A stretch of DNA of 34,366 nt from a virus. How positions within the stretch are numbered: the stretch's first letter is position 1; the number at the start of each line of letters is the position of its first letter. The position numbers were made by a program, and so were the translations under genes. The notes beneath the pieces are model-generated. The model was not told where the DNA came from and did no database searches. It saw nothing but the letters and a program-made list of their open reading frames with translations. The stretch is taken from positions 1 to 34,366 of the IMG/VR virus record IMGVR_UViG_3300046001_004537; one strand, 5' to 3'. Shown here one piece after another: positions 2,796-21,070 of this stretch.

Positions 2796-4729
2796 TAGGT
2801 AAGCTCCTTTGCAATGGCTAAGTTAACCTTCTTTTCGTTCATGACCCTATCGGCCACCTTGAGTCTGCGCTCAAACTCTCGGTCATCTTCTGTGCCTGCC
2901 GATAGATTGCTCGTAATGGCCCTAATTTGGGCCGTCTCAAGCTCTACGGGGATTGCCTTGACTTCGGCCAGCATCTTGATTGCGCGAGCTTCTGACTCCT
3001 TAGCTTGGCCGTTAAGGGCATTCGTTTGAGACTGCTGAAAGTCTGTCTGAAGCTTCAGTGCAGCCTGTTGTTGGGCTTGTTGAGCTTGTTGCTGTTCTGG
3101 GGAAACCTGCCCAGCAGACTTGAGCATCTTGATAAGCTCTTCCCGGTTAGAGAGGTTCATGCTGTCAATGGCAGCTTCGATCAAGGACATATATGCAGGA
3201 GAGTCCTGCGGCATAGTCTGAAGTAGTTGAACCAGTTGAGTGACCTCGTACTCTCGGGCGATAATGCCCAAAGAGGAGGTGATATCAAACTTGTAGTCAG
3301 CTACAGGATACAGTTCTGGTTCAAACTGCATATACCGCCAAGCAATCTTCTCGATCATTGGTATCAAGAATGACTCTTGGAAGTTGATTAGGGTGCGTTT
3401 ATGACGCTTTATGATTGCCCCAAGGGACATGGAGATACCGGCAGCAGTGGCCTCGCCATTGATAGAGCCTGAGATTCCGGCTGAGTCAATAGCACCCGTA
3501 GCTGTCTGAACCATGCGCTGCAATTCACCAGCTTGGGCAAAGGTAATCTGAGAGACCTGCCCAAAGTTGAACGGCTGGAGAATCTCTGCCGGATTGCCGT
3601 TGGTCATGATGATCTTGCCGGGCCTTACTTCAGGCTTGGCCCCTCTTGGCATTCTTGAGGCGTCCATCGCAATCATAGGATGAATCGTGAGAGCAAGGGC
3701 ATCTATCCTGGCCCTAAGCTCTGCATCCAAAGCCTTCTGTGAGTTATAGCCCTTCTCGCACACACCACGACCCCAGAATCTTCCCGGAACTATGTCCCAA
3801 GGAAAGGCTATGACGGGCCGGTCATTCATCATGTAGGGGTTGCGTTCGGCCTTAACGATGGTACTGCCGTTAATGATAACGACAATAGCCTCAACGTAGA
3901 AAGATTCTTCTTCCTCATCAAGGTCTTCGTATTCCTCAGAGTCTTCAAGTAATGTTCGTGGAACTAGGCCAAAGTATTTAGTCCGACGAACCTTGTCATC
4001 AGGCTGGTCTACGAGTTCGTGATCTACATCCAGTGCTAGGTCTGGATAAGTGACATTGAATGGCTCGTCTCGGTATACCCCGGACTCCTGAAGCAGTTCA
4101 ATCTCGTGGGGAGAGCAGTATTCGTCAATGATTACGCCGATTGCGTCATCTACAGACGTAGCAATAGGGTCGATCAGGAAGTTCTGCGGGAGGATTGGCC
4201 TTAGCCTGCAAACAGTCCTGTCTGCAATAGTCACTCCAACGGCTTGTAGCTGACCACCCATGATGTCCTGCTTGGCAGGCTTCATTTCCTTCTCTTGGGC
4301 GATGACTATCTCTGCCATGCCCGTACCATAGACGGCTGAGTTAATCAGGCACTCGGCTACAGCTTTGCGAATCTTGTTTCTTTGAAGGTCTCGGTATAGC
4401 TGATCTCGCAGATACTCAACATCAGTAGAGTCTGGGTCTTGTAAGTCATCTCGCATATCAAAGAAGCGCCCTCTTCCGAAGGTTGCCTCTTCAATCTCCG
4501 CTACAGATGACTCAACAGCCTGCTGAAGGGCAGGGGAGATGATCTTGGAGCGTTCAGACTCACGGGTTTTGTCTTCATCAGCGTAGATGCCACGCCATAA
4601 ACGGTTGTATTCGTCAAATCGATCTTCGTAATTGTTTTCAAAGTGGTCGCGCCATGTTCTGCACTTGTCCATAATCCACCCATCAAGGGTTTCAGTCTGG
4701 GACATTGTTTCTTCGTTTGAATCAAGCAT
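2795..4729 (-). CDS. Portal protein
   Basis: A 644-residue protein directly after the terminase large subunit, as portals usually are. It forms the dodecameric DNA entry channel at one head vertex. The N-terminal part has WRDHFENNYEDRFDEYNRLW; the middle has the stem/wing-type RPVIAFPWDIVPGRFWGRG and AELRARIDALALTIHPMI. The C-terminal third is helical, with a glutamine-rich tract near residues 550-565 (QQQAQQAQQQAA) followed by a charged coiled coil, comparable to the barrel of P22-type portals. The length is within the range for podovirus portals. ATG 4729 is 2 bases beyond the terminase stop; an internal ATG at 4705 is a weaker alternative. Confidence 0.92.
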   Translation of the reverse strand: MLDSNEETMSQTETLDGWIMDKCRTWRDHFENNYEDRFDEYNRLWRGIYADEDKTRESERSKIISPALQQAVESSVAEIEEATFGRGRFFDMRDDLQDPDSTDVEYLRDQLYRDLQRNKIRKAVAECLINSAVYGTGMAEIVIAQEKEMKPAKQDIMGGQLQAVGVTIADRTVCRLRPILPQNFLIDPIATSVDDAIGVIIDEYCSPHEIELLQESGVYRDEPFNVTYPDLALDVDHELVDQPDDKVRRTKYFGLVPRTLLEDSEEYEDLDEEEESFYVEAIVVIINGSTIVKAERNPYMMNDRPVIAFPWDIVPGRFWGRGVCEKGYNSQKALDAELRARIDALALTIHPMIAMDASRMPRGAKPEVRPGKIIMTNGNPAEILQPFNFGQVSQITFAQAGELQRMVQTATGAIDSAGISGSINGEATAAGISMSLGAIIKRHKRTLINFQESFLIPMIEKIAWRYMQFEPELYPVADYKFDITSSLGIIAREYEVTQLVQLLQTMPQDSPAYMSLIEAAIDSMNLSNREELIKMLKSAGQVSPEQQQAQQAQQQAALKLQTDFQQSQTNALNGQAKESEARAIKMLAEVKAIPVELETAQIRAITSNLSAGTEDDREFERRLKVADRVMNEKKVNLAIAKELT

Positions 4730-5976: not shown

Positions 5977-6398
5977 TACGGATACTCGCCAGTTCGAATC
6001 ATGTGAGCAATATCTTCAGCTCTCTTGCCTACCTGACTGGCCCATAGCGAGTCAAGAAGCTCAAGAGCTGCATCCTCGTAGTCGCCCACCTCTAAAGATC
6101 GCAGGGCTAGATGGAACTTCCTGAGTCGTGGGAGGCCGATGTTGAAACAAAGGTTAATCAGTGCGTCTCGTCTTACTGGGTCTAGGCCAACGTAGAACTT
6201 AAATGCCTTCTCTAACTCTTTGTCCACCCGGCGAATATCGTTCTTGAGCAGGTATAATATCTCTTCCTCTGATAAACCCATTCCCCCTATGGAGATGTTT
6301 CTGCCCACTCCAATAGTCCAGTGCCCGGTCGTGTCTTTGTAAACAAACTGCCGGGAGCCTTCGTGGAGGGTAAGCTGGTCAATCAGATTCTTGCTCAT
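5976..6398 (-). CDS. T4-type lysozyme (endolysin, GH24 muramidase)
   Basis: A 140-residue peptidoglycan hydrolase. The catalytic triad spacing of T4 lysozyme is kept: Glu13 in LTLHEGSR, Asp22 in YKDTTG and Thr28 in WTIGVG. The later helix RRDALINLCFNIGLPRL also matches the family. No signal peptide or signal-anchor is visible, so a holin should be needed for release. The gene starts inside the end of the small terminase gene (20-base overlap) and ends on the first base of the large terminase ATG. Placement of a lysozyme between the two terminase genes is unusual. Confidence 0.92.
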   Translation of the reverse strand: MSKNLIDQLTLHEGSRQFVYKDTTGHWTIGVGRNISIGGMGLSEEEILYLLKNDIRRVDKELEKAFKFYVGLDPVRRDALINLCFNIGLPRLRKFHLALRSLEVGDYEDAALELLDSLWASQVGKRAEDIAHMIRTGEYP

Positions 6399-6795
6399 AT
6401 ACTTCGCCTATCTGTTTTATAGTTGTCTCGCCTGCGGTAGTCACGTTGATGTTAATCATCGGCCTATCGCCCAGCTTGTTCTTGTCGTAATGACTCATGG
6501 GGGCCATCCTGTCCATGATTAGCTTCCATGCTGCTGCTTGGTTCTTGTTCTCGTCATCACAAGCAGCCCTAACGATAGAGTCGATTACCTTGTCTATCCT
6601 ATTGGCATCGAGAAGCCTTTCTTCCAGCTTCTTAATGGCAGTACGCATACCCTTTGGCCGACCAGCAACCTGCTTCTTCTGATCTTCCCACTGTAGGCGG
6701 GTCATCAGACGGTCTTCCTTTCTTGGTCTACCTCTCGACCGTTTAGCCTCTTGGCTAGTATCCGGTGTAGGTAGTTCCGCCTTTAGAACTTCCAT
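6379..6795 (-). CDS. terS: Terminase small subunit (probable)
   Basis: A 138-residue protein with a basic N-terminus (KRSRGRPRKEDRL, an AT-hook-like RGRP), a central helical region with AAAWKLIMDRMAPMSHYDKN, and a beta-strand-like C-terminus (INVTTAGETTIKQI). Small terminase subunits bind the packaging site and load the large subunit. The assignment rests on size, DNA-binding features and position one gene upstream of the large subunit. The two are separated only by the lysozyme gene. The ATG at 6795 has a purine-rich AGAAGAGAAAG upstream. Confidence 0.75.
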   Translation of the reverse strand: MEVLKAELPTPDTSQEAKRSRGRPRKEDRLMTRLQWEDQKKQVAGRPKGMRTAIKKLEERLLDANRIDKVIDSIVRAACDDENKNQAAAWKLIMDRMAPMSHYDKNKLGDRPMININVTTAGETTIKQIGEVYEQESD

Positions 6796-8348: not shown

Positions 8349-8509
8349 CAAACCTACTCCCTTTGGCACCGATTGGTTCTCCCCCTGCCGTGGGAGTCAC
8401 AGACCAGCGTTCTGGCCTTGAGTCAATCAATCATTCTGTGCTGCTTGCAGTTACTGAGCTGGCGAAGTAATCTGCGGTTTTGACTTGTACACAAGCTAAG
8501 GTCAAGGGC

Positions 8510-8539
8510 ATTATACTGCTATGCAGGAAAAGCTGTCAA
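8510..8539 (-). promoter_or_regulatory. Consensus-like sigma70 promoter for the late (minus) operon
   Basis: On the minus strand TTGACA (8539-8534) is separated by 18 bases from TATAAT (8515-8510), both perfect hexamers. Transcription would start near 8503 and enter the gene at 8348. A CTTGT-AC-ACAAG dyad at 8484-8495 lies just downstream of the predicted start and could be an operator. Use of the host sigma70 polymerase agrees with the absence of a phage RNA polymerase. Confidence 0.85.
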
Positions 8540-8764
8540 GTGTTTCCTTATGATTAATTTTCATATCAAATGGATTCTTTATCACTTTTAGTTATATAGA
8601 AACCTTCTTTAAAATCACATTTCTTAATCTAAATTAGCTCTTTTTTTAAATTGCTGATTTCATTAGGGAATTTTGGATGTTTGAAATTTGCCTTTTGCAA
8701 AATTGGGAGGGTACTATAATAATACTGCTCTGCAATCCCCCCTCCCCCCTATCAAAACCACTGA

Positions 8765-8956
8765 ATCAATAGCTTTTCTCTATCACCTATCGATCACCCA
8801 CGATCAATAGATTCTCTGCATCCTATATCGATTCAGGGATAACGATAGCTTTTCTCTATCGATACAGCCTGGCTATCATCACCACGAGATCAATAGATTA
8901 TCTGCATCAATTCAGTTGGTCTATCGTCCAGCCTGGATCAATAGCTTTTATCTATG
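8765..8956 (+). repeat. Five-copy alternating iteron-like repeat array
   Basis: Copies of a 20-base repeat start at 8765, 8803, 8841, 8889 and 8937. Types alternate A-B-A-B-A: type A is close to ATCAATAGCTTTTCTCTATC, type B to ATCAATAGATTCTCTGCATC. Start-to-start distances are 38, 38, 48 and 48 bases. Copy 3 begins AACGATAG and contains the dyad CGATAG-N7-CTATCG (8843-8861). The even spacing, conserved length and place between divergent operons suggest sites for a phage DNA-binding protein, either as replication iterons or as a regulatory operator array. Fixed spacers of 18 and 28 bases and few, varied copies do not fit CRISPR. Confidence 0.85.
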
Positions 8957-9016
8957 GATTGGCAGGGTGGAATGAATGCGGAGAATATGCTGCCTATAGG
9001 GATACCTACCTATGCA

Positions 9017-9040
9017 TATAGAGATGCCTATAGAGATGCC
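9017..9040 (+). repeat. Two tandem 12-bp repeats
   Basis: TATAGAGATGCC occurs twice head to tail (9017-9028 and 9029-9040), followed by CATGCC, with diverged partial copies just upstream (GCCTATAGGGATACC near 8992). It lies between the 20-bp repeat array and the first early gene. Role unknown; it may belong to the same origin or control region. Confidence 0.7.
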
Positions 9041-9110
9041 CATGCCATTGCATATACATATATATGAATCACGACCCTGAAAATATTTTGAATATATTTG
9101 CAGAAAGGTA

Positions 9111-9126
9111 TTGTCATCTGTGACAA
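9111..9126 (+). promoter_or_regulatory. Operator-like dyad upstream of first early gene
   Basis: TTGTCA-TCTG-TGACAA is a perfect 6+6 inverted repeat 50 bases before the ATG at 9177. TATTGT/TTGTCA-like hexamers overlap it, but I cannot fix -35 and -10 boxes for an early promoter. A dimeric repressor such as one of the phage HTH proteins could bind here. Confidence 0.45.
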
Positions 9127-9176
9127 GGCGTGAGAGTATAGCCACATCGAAACAAAACAACCAACGGGGGATAACC

Positions 9177-9896
9177 ATGAAGCTTCTAAGCTTTAATGCA
9201 GACGCTAAAACAATAAAATCAAACGAGTCCGGATCGGAATATCTGACAGCTATCCTGTACCTTGCTCCTGCTGACAGTGTGCCGGGTATCAATACTTGCC
9301 CCATGGCAGAACTAGCAGGATGCAAAGCTGGCTGCCTTTATGGTGCAGGTCGCGCTGCTATATTCCCGGCCATTCACTTAGCCCGTAGAGCAAAAACAGA
9401 ACTATTCAGAGACGATAGAACTGCATTTATGCTTCAGCTAAAGAAAGAAATTCAGGCATTTCAAAAGAAAGCTTTCAAGCTTGGAAAGATAGCAGCTATT
9501 CGACTTAACGGAACTAGTGATATCGCATGGGAGAATATCCCTACTGATACAGGATCAAGCTTAATGACAGACTTTCCTGACATTCAATGGTATGACTACA
9601 CTAAATTGCCCGGTCGTCGTGTTCCAAGCAATTACCATTTGACCGCCTCTTACTCGCAAGCCAATCAGTCCTATGCTTCCAAGGTTTCTAAGACCTTGCA
9701 CAATATCGCCGTTGTATTCCGCACTAAAGAACTGCCCGACACTTTCCTTGGTCGCAAGGTTATTAGTGGCGATAAGACAGACCTTAGGTTCTTGGATCAA
9801 TCCGGCGTAGTTGTTGGTTTGTACGCTAAAGGTCCGGCTAAAAAGGATCAGTCAGGATTTGTTGTGGACTATAGCCGGATGATCGCAAGGGGATAG
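9177..9896 (+). CDS. GP88-family protein (mycobacteriophage gene 88 type)
   Basis: A 239-residue protein and the first early gene. It matches the pattern I know for the gene-88 family: an N-terminal LSFNADAKT, then YLTAILYLAPAD, the cysteine cluster CPMAELAGCKAGC (C-x7-C-x3-C) followed by LYGAGR, then RLNGTSDIAWE and WYDYTKLPGR. The three clustered cysteines suggest a metal centre. No reaction has been assigned to the family as far as I know. ATG 9177 is chosen over upstream in-frame starts because GGGGG stands 6 bases before it and the family begins there. A strong RNA hairpin starts on the base after its stop codon. Confidence 0.8.
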   Translation: MKLLSFNADAKTIKSNESGSEYLTAILYLAPADSVPGINTCPMAELAGCKAGCLYGAGRAAIFPAIHLARRAKTELFRDDRTAFMLQLKKEIQAFQKKAFKLGKIAAIRLNGTSDIAWENIPTDTGSSLMTDFPDIQWYDYTKLPGRRVPSNYHLTASYSQANQSYASKVSKTLHNIAVVFRTKELPDTFLGRKVISGDKTDLRFLDQSGVVVGLYAKGPAKKDQSGFVVDYSRMIARG

Positions 9897-12136: not shown

Positions 12137-12529
12137 ATGAACAAAGCAGACAAAATCATAGAAAGGCTGGAGCACTGCAAGCCGTCAGGAACTAACCGCT
12201 GGATTGCGAGGTGTCCAGCGCATAAGGATTCAAGCCCGAGTTTAGTAATAAGCCAGCCAGACAACGAGCGGGTTCTTATCCATTGTCACGCTGGCTGTAG
12301 CGCCGGGGATATCCTGGACTCTATAGGACTGGACTGGGGCGCTTTGATGCCTGACAAAGGCATGACGTATAGCGCGACGAGGATTACCCGTAAGGATGCG
12401 CCTCTCGTGGACGAGATGCTCATTGAGATTAGCAAAAGCATGTTATCTCGTGGGGAGCGAATGTCCGAACTAGACAAACAGGCGGTATTAGGCGCAAGAT
12501 TGAGAGTCCTACAAGCTAACAGGGGATGA
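12137..12529 (+). CDS. Stand-alone primase zinc-binding domain (CHC2-like)
   Basis: A 130-residue protein. Residues 1-70 resemble the N-terminal zinc domain of DnaG/T7 gp4 primases: RWIARCPAHKDSSPSLVI (Cys26, His29) and VLIHCHAGCSAGDILDSIGL (Cys50, Cys54). No TOPRIM domain follows; the rest is a charged helical tail. It could recognise priming sites for a host primase or for the phage helicase two genes downstream. The ATG is one base after the YopX stop, within the repeated GGGGATGAC-ATG junction. Longer in-frame starts upstream would overlap YopX and lack a ribosome site. Confidence 0.8.
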   Translation: MNKADKIIERLEHCKPSGTNRWIARCPAHKDSSPSLVISQPDNERVLIHCHAGCSAGDILDSIGLDWGALMPDKGMTYSATRITRKDAPLVDEMLIEISKSMLSRGERMSELDKQAVLGARLRVLQANRG

Positions 12530-12531
12530 CC

Positions 12532-13188
12532 ATGCACTACTACAAAAGAAATATAGGGGACTATCACAAGAAAGCAGGGAGGCTTTCTATTCTGGAGCAC
12601 GGAGCGTACACGCTCTTGATAGATGCGTGCTATGACCGTGAACGCTTTCCCACGCTTGAGCAGGCTATTGATTGGGCGTGGGCTTCAACAGAGGCTGAGA
12701 AGCAGGCGGTCGAGTCTGTCTTGCGTAGATTTTTCACGCTGGAGGATGGAGTTTATGTTCAAGGCAGAATCATGGAGGAGATCGCTGCTTACCACGAAAA
12801 CAGTAAGATAAACAAGCGCATAGCAATTGATCGTGAGGAGAAGAAGAGATCAATGCTGAACGCTTCGTGCACGGAGCGTGAACCAACCGTGAACGAACCT
12901 CCACCTAACCATAAACCATTAACCATTAACCAAGAACCACTTGGGGAAAAGCAGGCGGTGCGAAAGAGATTTAAAGCGCCAACTCCTGATGAGGTTCTTG
13001 AGTACGCTAACGGTATCGGATTCGACATTGACCATGAGCACTTCGTGACCTACTACACGGCGCAGGGGTGGAAGTTAAGCAACGGGGTAGCAATGAAGGA
13101 TTGGAAGGCAACAGTCCAGAACTGGAAGAGAAGGGAAGCGCAGAAGCTATCCATCCCCACGAATACAAGCTTTGTTAAGGAGGTTTAA
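12532..13188 (+). CDS. DUF1376-type replication protein (YdaU-like)
   Basis: A 218-residue protein beginning MHYYKRNIGDYHKKAGRLSI and continuing EHGAYTLLIDACY, the classical start of DUF1376/YdaU proteins. These sit next to helicase loaders or helicases in lambdoid and related phages. The linker has PPPNHKPLTINQEPLG, a run common in phage replication initiators. The C-terminus (YTAQGWKLSNGVAMKDWKAT) resembles the DNA-binding end of such initiators. I infer an origin-recognition or helicase-loading role. The second ATG (12532) is chosen because AGGGG is 6 bases upstream; ATG 12526 would have no spacer. Confidence 0.8.
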   Translation: MHYYKRNIGDYHKKAGRLSILEHGAYTLLIDACYDRERFPTLEQAIDWAWASTEAEKQAVESVLRRFFTLEDGVYVQGRIMEEIAAYHENSKINKRIAIDREEKKRSMLNASCTEREPTVNEPPPNHKPLTINQEPLGEKQAVRKRFKAPTPDEVLEYANGIGFDIDHEHFVTYYTAQGWKLSNGVAMKDWKATVQNWKRREAQKLSIPTNTSFVKEV

Positions 13189-15583: not shown

Positions 15584-15897
15584 GTAAAATTGGGGTTCAG
15601 GTAAAGATAGATGTCTCGAAGATTGATAAGGCATTGCTGTACAAAGGAGCTAAGGGTACATACCTGGACGCAACCGTGTTCATCGACGTAGATACACCGG
15701 ATCAGTACGGCAATCACGGGATGGTAACTCAGGATATTTCAAAGGAGAAGAAGGATGCTGGAGAAAAAGGCCCAATTCTTGGCAATGTTAAGATATTTTG
15801 GAAAGATAGTGGCAGCAATCAAGCGGTACAGAGACCTGTATCAAAGCCTTCAAAGCCAGCAGGAGGAGATAACTTTGATGACGACATCCCTTTCTAG
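15580..15897 (+). CDS. Single-stranded DNA-binding-like protein
   Basis: A 105-residue protein placed directly after the exonuclease. The N-terminal 75 residues are beta-rich (YLDATVFIDVDTPDQYG) and of a type often found at this place. A proline/lysine linker (VSKPSKPAGGD) leads to an acidic tail, FDDDIPF, which mimics the D-D-x-I/L-PF tip used by bacterial SSB to recruit partners. I infer that it coats single strands and works with Erf and the exonuclease. The OB fold itself cannot be proved from sequence reading. Confidence 0.72.
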   Translation: MSKIGVQVKIDVSKIDKALLYKGAKGTYLDATVFIDVDTPDQYGNHGMVTQDISKEKKDAGEKGPILGNVKIFWKDSGSNQAVQRPVSKPSKPAGGDNFDDDIPF

Positions 15898-16087
15898 CCT
15901 TCCGCATTTCGGGGATTGTGTGAAGAAGCTACACGCCCAGAAGGGCATCTCTCAAAGAGAGGTAGCGGAGAAGATAGGGATGGATGCAGGCAACTATAAC
16001 CGCCTGTTAAACCGACCCAGCATGAGCGCCTCAACTCTCTGGTCTATCTGTAAAGCTCTTGATGTGAAGTTTGGTGACATAGCATGA
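15878..16087 (+). CDS. Cro/Xre-type helix-turn-helix regulator
   Basis: A 69-residue protein, mostly one HTH domain: GISQREVAEKIGMDAGNYNR (about residues 24-43) with the typical Q-x-E-x-A helix, then STLWSICKALDVKFGDIA. ATG 15878 is chosen because AGGAGGAG lies 9-11 bases upstream and only the HTH remains. Upstream in-frame codons would overlap the SSB gene in another frame. It may act as a Cro-like repressor, with the dyad at 9111-9126 or the repeat array as conceivable targets. Confidence 0.87.
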   Translation: MTTSLSSLPHFGDCVKKLHAQKGISQREVAEKIGMDAGNYNRLLNRPSMSASTLWSICKALDVKFGDIA

Positions 16088-17413: not shown

Positions 17414-17602
17414 ATGCCTGTAATCAAAGCGGCCTGGGCAAGAAAGGTGGAGGAGGAGGAGGGAATGTGCATCCTCGACGTAATCAGACGGGAGAGAGCC
17501 TGTCATGTACCGGACTGCATAATTGCCGCCAGCTTTGAGATAAAATCAAAGTGCTTCAACATGACAATGAGAAGGCTTAGAGATAAGGGGATAGACATAT
17601 GA
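17414..17602 (+). CDS. Hypothetical helical protein (62 residues)
   Basis: ATG 17414, with GAGG 8 bases upstream, gives MPVIKAAWARKVEEEEGMCI and then CHVPDCIIAASFEIKSKC, ending MRRLRDKGIDI. The end resembles the recognition helix and wing of small DNA-binding proteins, but the match is too loose to name. ATG 17390 is an alternative that overlaps ninG. Its stop overlaps the next gene as ATGA. Confidence 0.55.
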   Translation: MPVIKAAWARKVEEEEGMCILDVIRRERACHVPDCIIAASFEIKSKCFNMTMRRLRDKGIDI

Positions 17603-17844
17603 TCTGTATGGCAGATGTACTCAGAGACATGAACCGGGTAGGATTTATATCCCTCACGAATCCAAGCAGGATGGAGGAGGAAGACCTTAAACACCACAGG
17701 GCTGTTGCTCCCTTCGCTGAAGTCGAGGAGGCCAGAAGGCTGCACAAGAAGGGCGTATCCCAGAAGGAGATAGCCATTAGACTCGGAAGATCAGGCAATA
17801 CAATCCATAGTTGGATTTACCACAACACAAGAAGGACGTCATGA
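17599..17844 (+). CDS. Helix-turn-helix protein (homeodomain-like)
   Basis: An 81-residue protein whose C-terminal half is a clear HTH: EVEEARRLHKKGVSQKEIAI followed by RLGRSGNTIHSWIYH, the pattern of resolvase/transposase-type HTH domains. The N-terminal 35 residues (MICMADVLRDMNRVGFISLT) are not recognised. It is likely a small DNA-binding regulator of early or late genes. ATGA overlaps exist at both ends. Confidence 0.72.
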   Translation: MICMADVLRDMNRVGFISLTNPSRMEEEDLKHHRAVAPFAEVEEARRLHKKGVSQKEIAIRLGRSGNTIHSWIYHNTRRTS

Positions 17845-20884: not shown

Positions 20885-21070
20885 GTGACAGAAAAACAAC
20901 AGCAAGCATTATCCTTCATAGCTGAAAAGCCGGGGTGTTCAATCAAAGAAATAGCAGAGCACTGCGGAATAACTCACCAGTCAGCGTATGAAAGAATTGG
21001 ACAGCTTAAAAGGGACGGGCTAATCAGCACCGGGGATAAACACCAGAAGCGCAAAATGAGGGCTATATGA
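20885..21070 (+). CDS. Winged-helix DNA-binding protein
   Basis: A 61-residue protein consisting of one winged HTH of MarR/LexA-like shape: QQALSFIAEKPGCSIKEIAE then HCGITHQSAYERIGQLKRDG and a basic wing. The start is GTG at 20885, with AGGGG 6 bases upstream. No dimerisation or ligand domain is present, so it may bind DNA alone or be an anti-repressor-like decoy. Together with the Xre and homeodomain-like proteins it is one of three small regulators in the early unit. Confidence 0.78.
   Translation: MTEKQQQALSFIAEKPGCSIKEIAEHCGITHQSAYERIGQLKRDGLISTGDKHQKRKMRAI

Follow-up and report, generated by a model that had tools for sequence, protein, structure and literature searches.

Several described systems place arrays of regulator sites in control regions or on replicons, and the locus reported here shares features with them. 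In phage phi29, the sites for the protein p4 lie between the early A2b and A2c promoters and the late A3 promoter. Phage GIL01 is repressed by the host LexA through SOS boxes (PMC4551915), and this is a precedent for host LexA acting on a phage control region. The precedent for titration comes from datA of E. coli and the DnaA-box clusters of B. subtilis, sets of boxes for a host protein that hold or titrate it (PMC5010248). OxyR binds the dyad ATAG-N7-CTAT, with two tandem dyads separated by an interval of 7 to 10 bp (PMC8787470, PMC5002191), while in phage lambda the initiator iterons lie inside the O gene itself (PMC7466680). Within an open-access library, we found no paper on a swappable slot and no precedent among phage-borne operator decoys or arrays of host-regulator sites.

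We analyzed a viral DNA window of 34,366 nucleotides (positions 1 to 34,366 of IMG/VR record IMGVR_UViG_3300046001_004537). As in phi29, several dyad sites lie between divergent early and late promoters, but the window has five units of two types that overlap no recognized promoter, and the proteins scanned included no p4 homologue. GIL01 P1 is comparable in that a host repressor acts on phage control DNA there at a strong and a weak operator; GIL01, however, has one fixed pair of sites at its promoter, whereas the family described here has four to five sites in a slot where they are exchanged for unrelated specificities. The clusters of datA and B. subtilis find their likeness in the DnaA arrays of five relatives, but they are carried on chromosomes instead of phages and are not exchangeable for arrays of the LexA type.

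The control region and its array

The leftward (late) genes of the window end at 8369 and the rightward (early) genes start at 9177, leaving a noncoding control region of 0.8 kb. The array had been placed between the early and late operons in the initial annotation, and its position is indeed that of a control site between divergent promoters. The leftward sigma70-type promoter, TTGACA-18-TATAAT (8510 to 8539, minus strand), agrees with the consensus at 12 of 12 positions, is kept at 11 to 12 of 12 across the window's clade, and is predicted to drive the late operon. The probable early promoter is TTGTCA-18-AGTATA at 9111 to 9140, and its −35 element is overlapped by a palindrome, TTGTC-N6-GACAA (9111 to 9126), recognized by inspection; inspection also finds this palindrome kept in L001 and nearly kept in L030. 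The array lies ∼210 bp from the perfect leftward promoter and ∼150 bp from the early one and overlaps neither, with second, looser repeats (TGCCTATAGRGAT; 8990 to 9061, plus strand) between it and the early promoter. To its left, an AT-rich stretch (76% A+T; 8560 to 8690) is followed by a conserved, putatively promoter-like block, TTTTGCAAAATTGGGAGGGTACTATAATAATACTGC...CCCCCCTCCCCCC (8692 to 8749), which adjoins the array flush. The profile of this block, TTGCAAATTTGGGGGG.TACTATAATAATTAC..CCCCCTCCCC, matches 50 records, 49 of them distinct (L034 and L116 are the same). The part TTGCAAATTTGGGGGG.TACTATAATAATTAC is deeply conserved and is followed by a C-run interrupted by a single T.

Neither a scan of the control region against Rfam nor a BLAST search of the region against cultured phages returned a match. 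The leader of the leftward transcript (8372 to 8512, minus strand) contains conserved hairpins (CTCCCACGGCAGGGGGAG; GCAG...CTGC) and could be an antitermination or attenuation leader; with just two compensatory pairs, we make no claim of a conserved RNA structure there.

Untuned repeat finding places the five copies of the array at 8749, 8787, 8825, 8873, and 8921, in steps of 38, 38, 48, and 48 bp, and the letter that follows ATAG in copies 1 to 5 (C, A, C, A, C) gives the order A-B-A-B-A, both of which confirm the initial annotation. The 20-base repeat described there is real in all its copies but represents merely the right part of a 37-nt unit, CTATYR-N12-YRATAG-N7-CTATYR, and the five units span 8749 to 8957. 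One half-site, CTATYR (YRATAG in reverse), is used three times per unit, with h1 at 0, h2 inverted at +18, and h3 at +31. The 24-bp dyad CTATYR-N12-YRATAG has four matches in the 34-kb window, all of them inside the array (0.01 expected), and YRATAG-N7-CTATYR has two, again both inside the array (0.04 expected).

The type A units carry ATAGC and a good third half-site (ATAG-CTTTTCT-CTAT); in the type B units, ATAGA goes with a degraded third half-site, and CCACGAG is conserved within N12. On the plus strand, the type A units are unit 1 (8749 to 8785; CTATCA-N12-CAATAG-CTTTTCT-CTATCA), unit 3 (8825 to 8861; ATATCG-N12-CGATAG-CTTTTCT-CTATCG), and unit 5 (8921 to 8957; CTATCG-N12-CAATAG-CTTTTAT-CTATGG); the type B units are unit 2 (8787 to 8823; CTATCG-N12-CAATAG-ATTCTCT-GCATCC, with the third half-site degenerate) and unit 4 (8873 to 8909; CTATCA-TCACCACGAGAT-CAATAG-ATTATCT-GCATCA). 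The CGATAG/CTATCG dyad that had been singled out in copy 3 is present at 8843 to 8861, within unit 3, but is not peculiar to that copy; YRATAG-N7-CTATYR has an exact match in copy 1 as well and a near match in copy 5.

Since the motif was derived from the array first, the independent test is that it recurs, with its geometry unchanged, in three other phages. Motif, internal geometry, and alternation are all kept in three independent IMG/VR records, G001 (L001; contig 3300046000_003290), G002 (L030; 3300046001_002700), and G004 (L035; 3300020048_001449). The half-site offsets of 18 and 13 are constant in all four phages wherever the half-sites are intact, and the order A-B-A-B is present in each of the four. 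The unit spacings are 38, 38, 48, and 48 in the window, 38, 38, and 48 in G001, 47, 38, and 48 in G002, and 58, 38, and 48 in G004, where, as in G002, one additional overlapping half-site pair lies within the last 48-bp gap. The four distinct spacings cluster modulo 10 (P of about 0.002 against random integers, with the spacings treated as independent draws). In the slots of the four array-bearing phages, CTATYR-N12-YRATAG is found 14 times, compared to three scattered single matches elsewhere. Part of the identity is due to common ancestry, but the remainder of the region is just about 71 to 77% identical.

The sequences thus demonstrate the sites, their invariant internal geometry, their quantized spacing, and their conserved alternation. 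The two site types, from which two binding modes or two proteins at one site had been suggested, are borne out and conserved in relatives, and the 38/48 spacing noted at first is conserved as part of a set (38, 47, 48, and 58) quantized by helical turns. Because the unit spacings cluster in this manner and the order holds in four phages, the stepped spacing is a real constraint, under which units shift by whole helical turns. With repeated dyads, helical spacing, and conservation in relatives, the array has the sequence properties of a phased multisite operator array.

Phased spacing also suits DNA bending, and the array could be read as a row of IHF sites forming an architectural element. The element ATCAATAG[CA]TT resembles WATCAANNNNTTR, 38 bp is near the size of an IHF footprint, and several copies, such as unit 4 of L001 (TATCAATAGATTA), match the IHF consensus. 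However, unit 3 in both the window and L001 is AACGATAG, in which the IHF core is broken while YRATAG is kept, and mirrored CTATYR half-sites at fixed distances on both sides are unnecessary for IHF, making this reading very improbable.

Unrelated arrays in the same slot

Scanning with the large terminase gave 80 relatives, and a helicase-alignment scan returned only loci known already. By TerL, all cultured relatives are under 60% identity, and the same holds for plasmids. To the right of the conserved block, relatives hold arrays unrelated to that of the window in the same slot. LexA boxes in the control region, as in GIL01, are found in L034, L117, L132, L139, and L173, which carry three to five CTG-N10-CAG boxes; DnaA-box clusters occur in L128, L131, L134, and L137, with five perfect TTATCCACA boxes each, and in L140, with two boxes before the contig ends (both consensus sequences are from PMC6015884). 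L124 and L125 have three ATTGGTNNGACCA boxes that form a PdhR-like array (site consensus from PMC7660256), and an array of the palindrome TGGCGAGATTCGCTA is present in L122, L141 to L143, L148, L151, L155, L158, and L166. Array lengths may be incomplete, since these are metagenomic contigs and several of them stop within the array, but independent contigs agree.

The box TTATCCACA is found 22 times in slots versus twice elsewhere in 523 kb; for the LexA pattern CTGKN8MCAG, the corresponding counts are about 36 in slots versus about 45 elsewhere. The slot of the window contains no LexA boxes (CTG-N10-CAG) between 8752 and the early genes and no TTATNCACA DnaA boxes. A search of IMG/VR with the LexA-type pattern of L034 gave 58 contigs, with two copies only in L034 itself.

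The exchange of arrays is seen most directly between close neighbors. L131 (DnaA) and L132 (LexA) are 97% similar over the 400 bp left of the array and show only background similarity within it, while L030 (window-type) and L034 (LexA) are 84% similar on the left and 95% in the block and share nothing in the array. On the TerL tree, where L034 is sister to G002 (support of 99/92), 8 changes are required to account for array type, and given the well-supported branches, the LexA arrays must have changed at least 4 times. These comparisons establish that there is a slot and that its content is exchanged for arrays matching DnaA, LexA, and PdhR-like boxes.

The best explanation, in which we have middling confidence, is that the array serves a dimeric regulator, probably one encoded by the host, as an exchangeable operator platform anchored at the conserved promoter-like block. 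We favor a host regulator on the grounds that exact boxes of host proteins (DnaA and LexA) make up two of the sister arrays, and by analogy with the relatives that carry other arrays, the reader of the window array is most likely a host-encoded regulator as well. The five tandem, helically phased docking sites in the fixed slot would bind a dimeric, sequence-specific DNA-binding protein, with the type A units acting as strong sites (two good half-sites in the ATAG-N7-CTAT dyad) and the type B units as weak or composite sites (a degenerate third half-site and CCACGAG in N12). Regulator dimers would fill the strong A units and then, with help, the weak B units, giving rise to a cooperative complex whose occupancy could switch transcription from the block and the flanking promoters, or silence it, according to the state of the host. 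Alternatively, at high phage copy number, the array might titrate the regulator.

Known cases of regulator borrowing by phages involve a single host regulator at a time. We tentatively propose a broader arrangement, toward which we remain somewhat skeptical, in which one fixed slot serves a large family of uncultivated phages as a plug-in socket; host operator arrays would be swapped there by recombination, each phage sensing or soaking up a different host global regulator (DnaA, LexA, a PdhR-like regulator, or, in the window, the reader of an OxyR/LysR-like dyad). A docking array that is a swappable cassette, in DnaA-, LexA-, and PdhR-type versions, among otherwise near-identical neighbors would offer a natural experiment on the ways in which viruses read the state of the host or disarm it, and such a family would give a direct way to ask whether the arrays are sensors or decoys.

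Other repeats were also observed around the slot. Single LexA boxes (CTGTATAAAAGAACAG and similar) lie near the early promoter or the start of the early operon in L131, L132, L134, L137, L139, L143, L151, and L166, and in L030 at about 2507, and they occur even with a main array of another type. A second array of GTTACCGGTAACAC / CGGTAACAC direct repeats is located farther right in L141 to L143, L149 to L152, L157, L160, L164 to L166, L169, L171, and L172 and is absent from the window. Immediately right of the block, a CGAACGAACGCTCG-like motif is present in L122, L124, L132, L144, L155, and L169 to L172, usually as a single copy and twice in L172.

Candidate readers of the window array

The type A units of the window resemble OxyR/LysR-type operators, holding ATAG-N7-CTAT with a T at position 6 and the T-N11-A layout of LysR-type sites. 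This dyad is seen in units 1, 3, and 5, and the type B units have half of it. Unlike in OxyR tandem sites, there is an additional upstream half-site in the opposite orientation, and the intervals between dyads are 23 or 33 bp instead of 7 to 10 bp; on account of this interval, we do not call the window array an OxyR site. For the motif of the window itself, no host regulator gives a convincing match.

Among the phage proteins that had been put forward as readers, the winged-helix protein at 20885 is discarded, its gene being absent from the array-bearing G001 and G002. Both of these genomes also lack the PLA2-like gene that lies beside the region, and the other relatives of that gene are in nonsyntenic positions. 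The candidates left are possibly an Xre/Cro-type helix-turn-helix (HTH) protein (15878 to 16087, plus strand), a small HTH_38-type protein (17599 to 17844, plus strand) found in three array-bearing genomes (93% and 59% identity), or a host protein such as a LysR/OxyR-like factor.

Either of the two phage proteins could use the array as an operator for switching the divergent promoters, in the manner of phi29 p4 or lambda CI/Cro, and the position between early and late promoters suits such a switch. Both are encoded by each of the three array-bearing genomes with coverage of the region. The three array-bearing phages with a readable Xre also have the same recognition helix, DAGNYNRLLN, which differs in phages with other arrays. 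The differences in Xre, however, follow the general phylogeny, and the covariation with the array is therefore not independent. Moreover, L131 has an Xre although its slot holds a DnaA-type array, which means that the slot needs no Xre site, and Xre could equally well target the palindrome TTGTC-N6-GACAA at the early promoter. We consider a phage-encoded switch protein a serious but minority possibility.

Replication, packaging, and genome ends

The initial annotation expected an origin or a switch at the array. The array could be the initiator-binding part of a replication origin in which the AT-rich stretch at 8560 to 8690 unwinds, with the DnaA arrays of relatives representing the same origin served by host DnaA; five DnaA boxes beside an AT-rich stretch do look like a theta origin. 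Cumulative GC skew turns at about 9 kb, in the array region, as such a reading would have it, but all genes on the right are on the plus strand and all genes on the left are on the minus strand, so that skew is fully confounded with gene direction and does not tell the two apart.

The DUF1376 primosomal-type protein (12526 to 13188, plus strand), which had been named as a possible array-binding protein, was set aside. Its C terminus is conserved, and its N-terminal domain is swapped between relatives without any link to array type. This domain is only 28% identical between the window and G002 despite their matching arrays, and 25% identical over 67 aligned residues between L131 and L137, both with DnaA arrays, yet it is 94% identical between L137 (DnaA array) and L139 (LexA array). 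An AlphaFold model of the N terminus has a winged-helix-like layout, and the best Foldseek matches are mostly winged-helix proteins, at nonsignificant scores.

The linker of the DUF1376 gene contains repeats of its own (12881 to 12933, plus strand), with AACCAT/A at 12907, 12914, 12921, and 12928, and in 39 of 45 relatives such in-gene repeats exceed all 50 codon shuffles. Direct repeats of the CGAACCGTGAA and AACCATA types are seen in the linker in the window, L001 to L030, L125, L131, L134, L137, and L139. Tandem initiator-type repeats inside the gene are the layout of lambda oriL and O, from which we infer that the DUF1376 linker is probably a better candidate origin than the array. The array, on the other hand, is intergenic (8749 to 8957), lies 3.6 kb from the initiator-like gene, consists of dyad half-sites at 38 to 58 bp, and does not follow the type of the initiator's DNA-binding domain.

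The in-gene repeats and the unlinked DUF1376 types both weaken the origin reading, and the same slot is filled elsewhere by boxes for LexA or a PdhR-like protein, which are not initiators. Relatives with intact replication genes that lack the array do exist, an outcome held at the outset to refute the first reading, but in the slot they hold arrays of other kinds, an observation that speaks for a swappable operator platform more than for a fixed origin. An origin at the array is therefore unlikely, and the control array and the replication origin, merged in the first reading, can be considered separately.

All phages with this terminase share the conserved block if their contigs cover the region, and the array directly adjoins it, which would suit a packaging (pac/cos) recognition site for the small terminase. 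In such a case, the site type should follow the small terminase, but the probable TerS (6379 to 6795) is 89% identical in G003, where the array is completely different, and we regard a packaging site as most improbable.

Two further features were observed in G001. The contig ends (L050/L051) overlap by about 240 bp on window coordinates, which suggests a circular or circularly permuted genome. In its early region, a 12-nt tandem repeat (CGCTGCTGGGTA...) is present in fifteen copies at 3567 to 3793 of L001, possibly in a coding frame.
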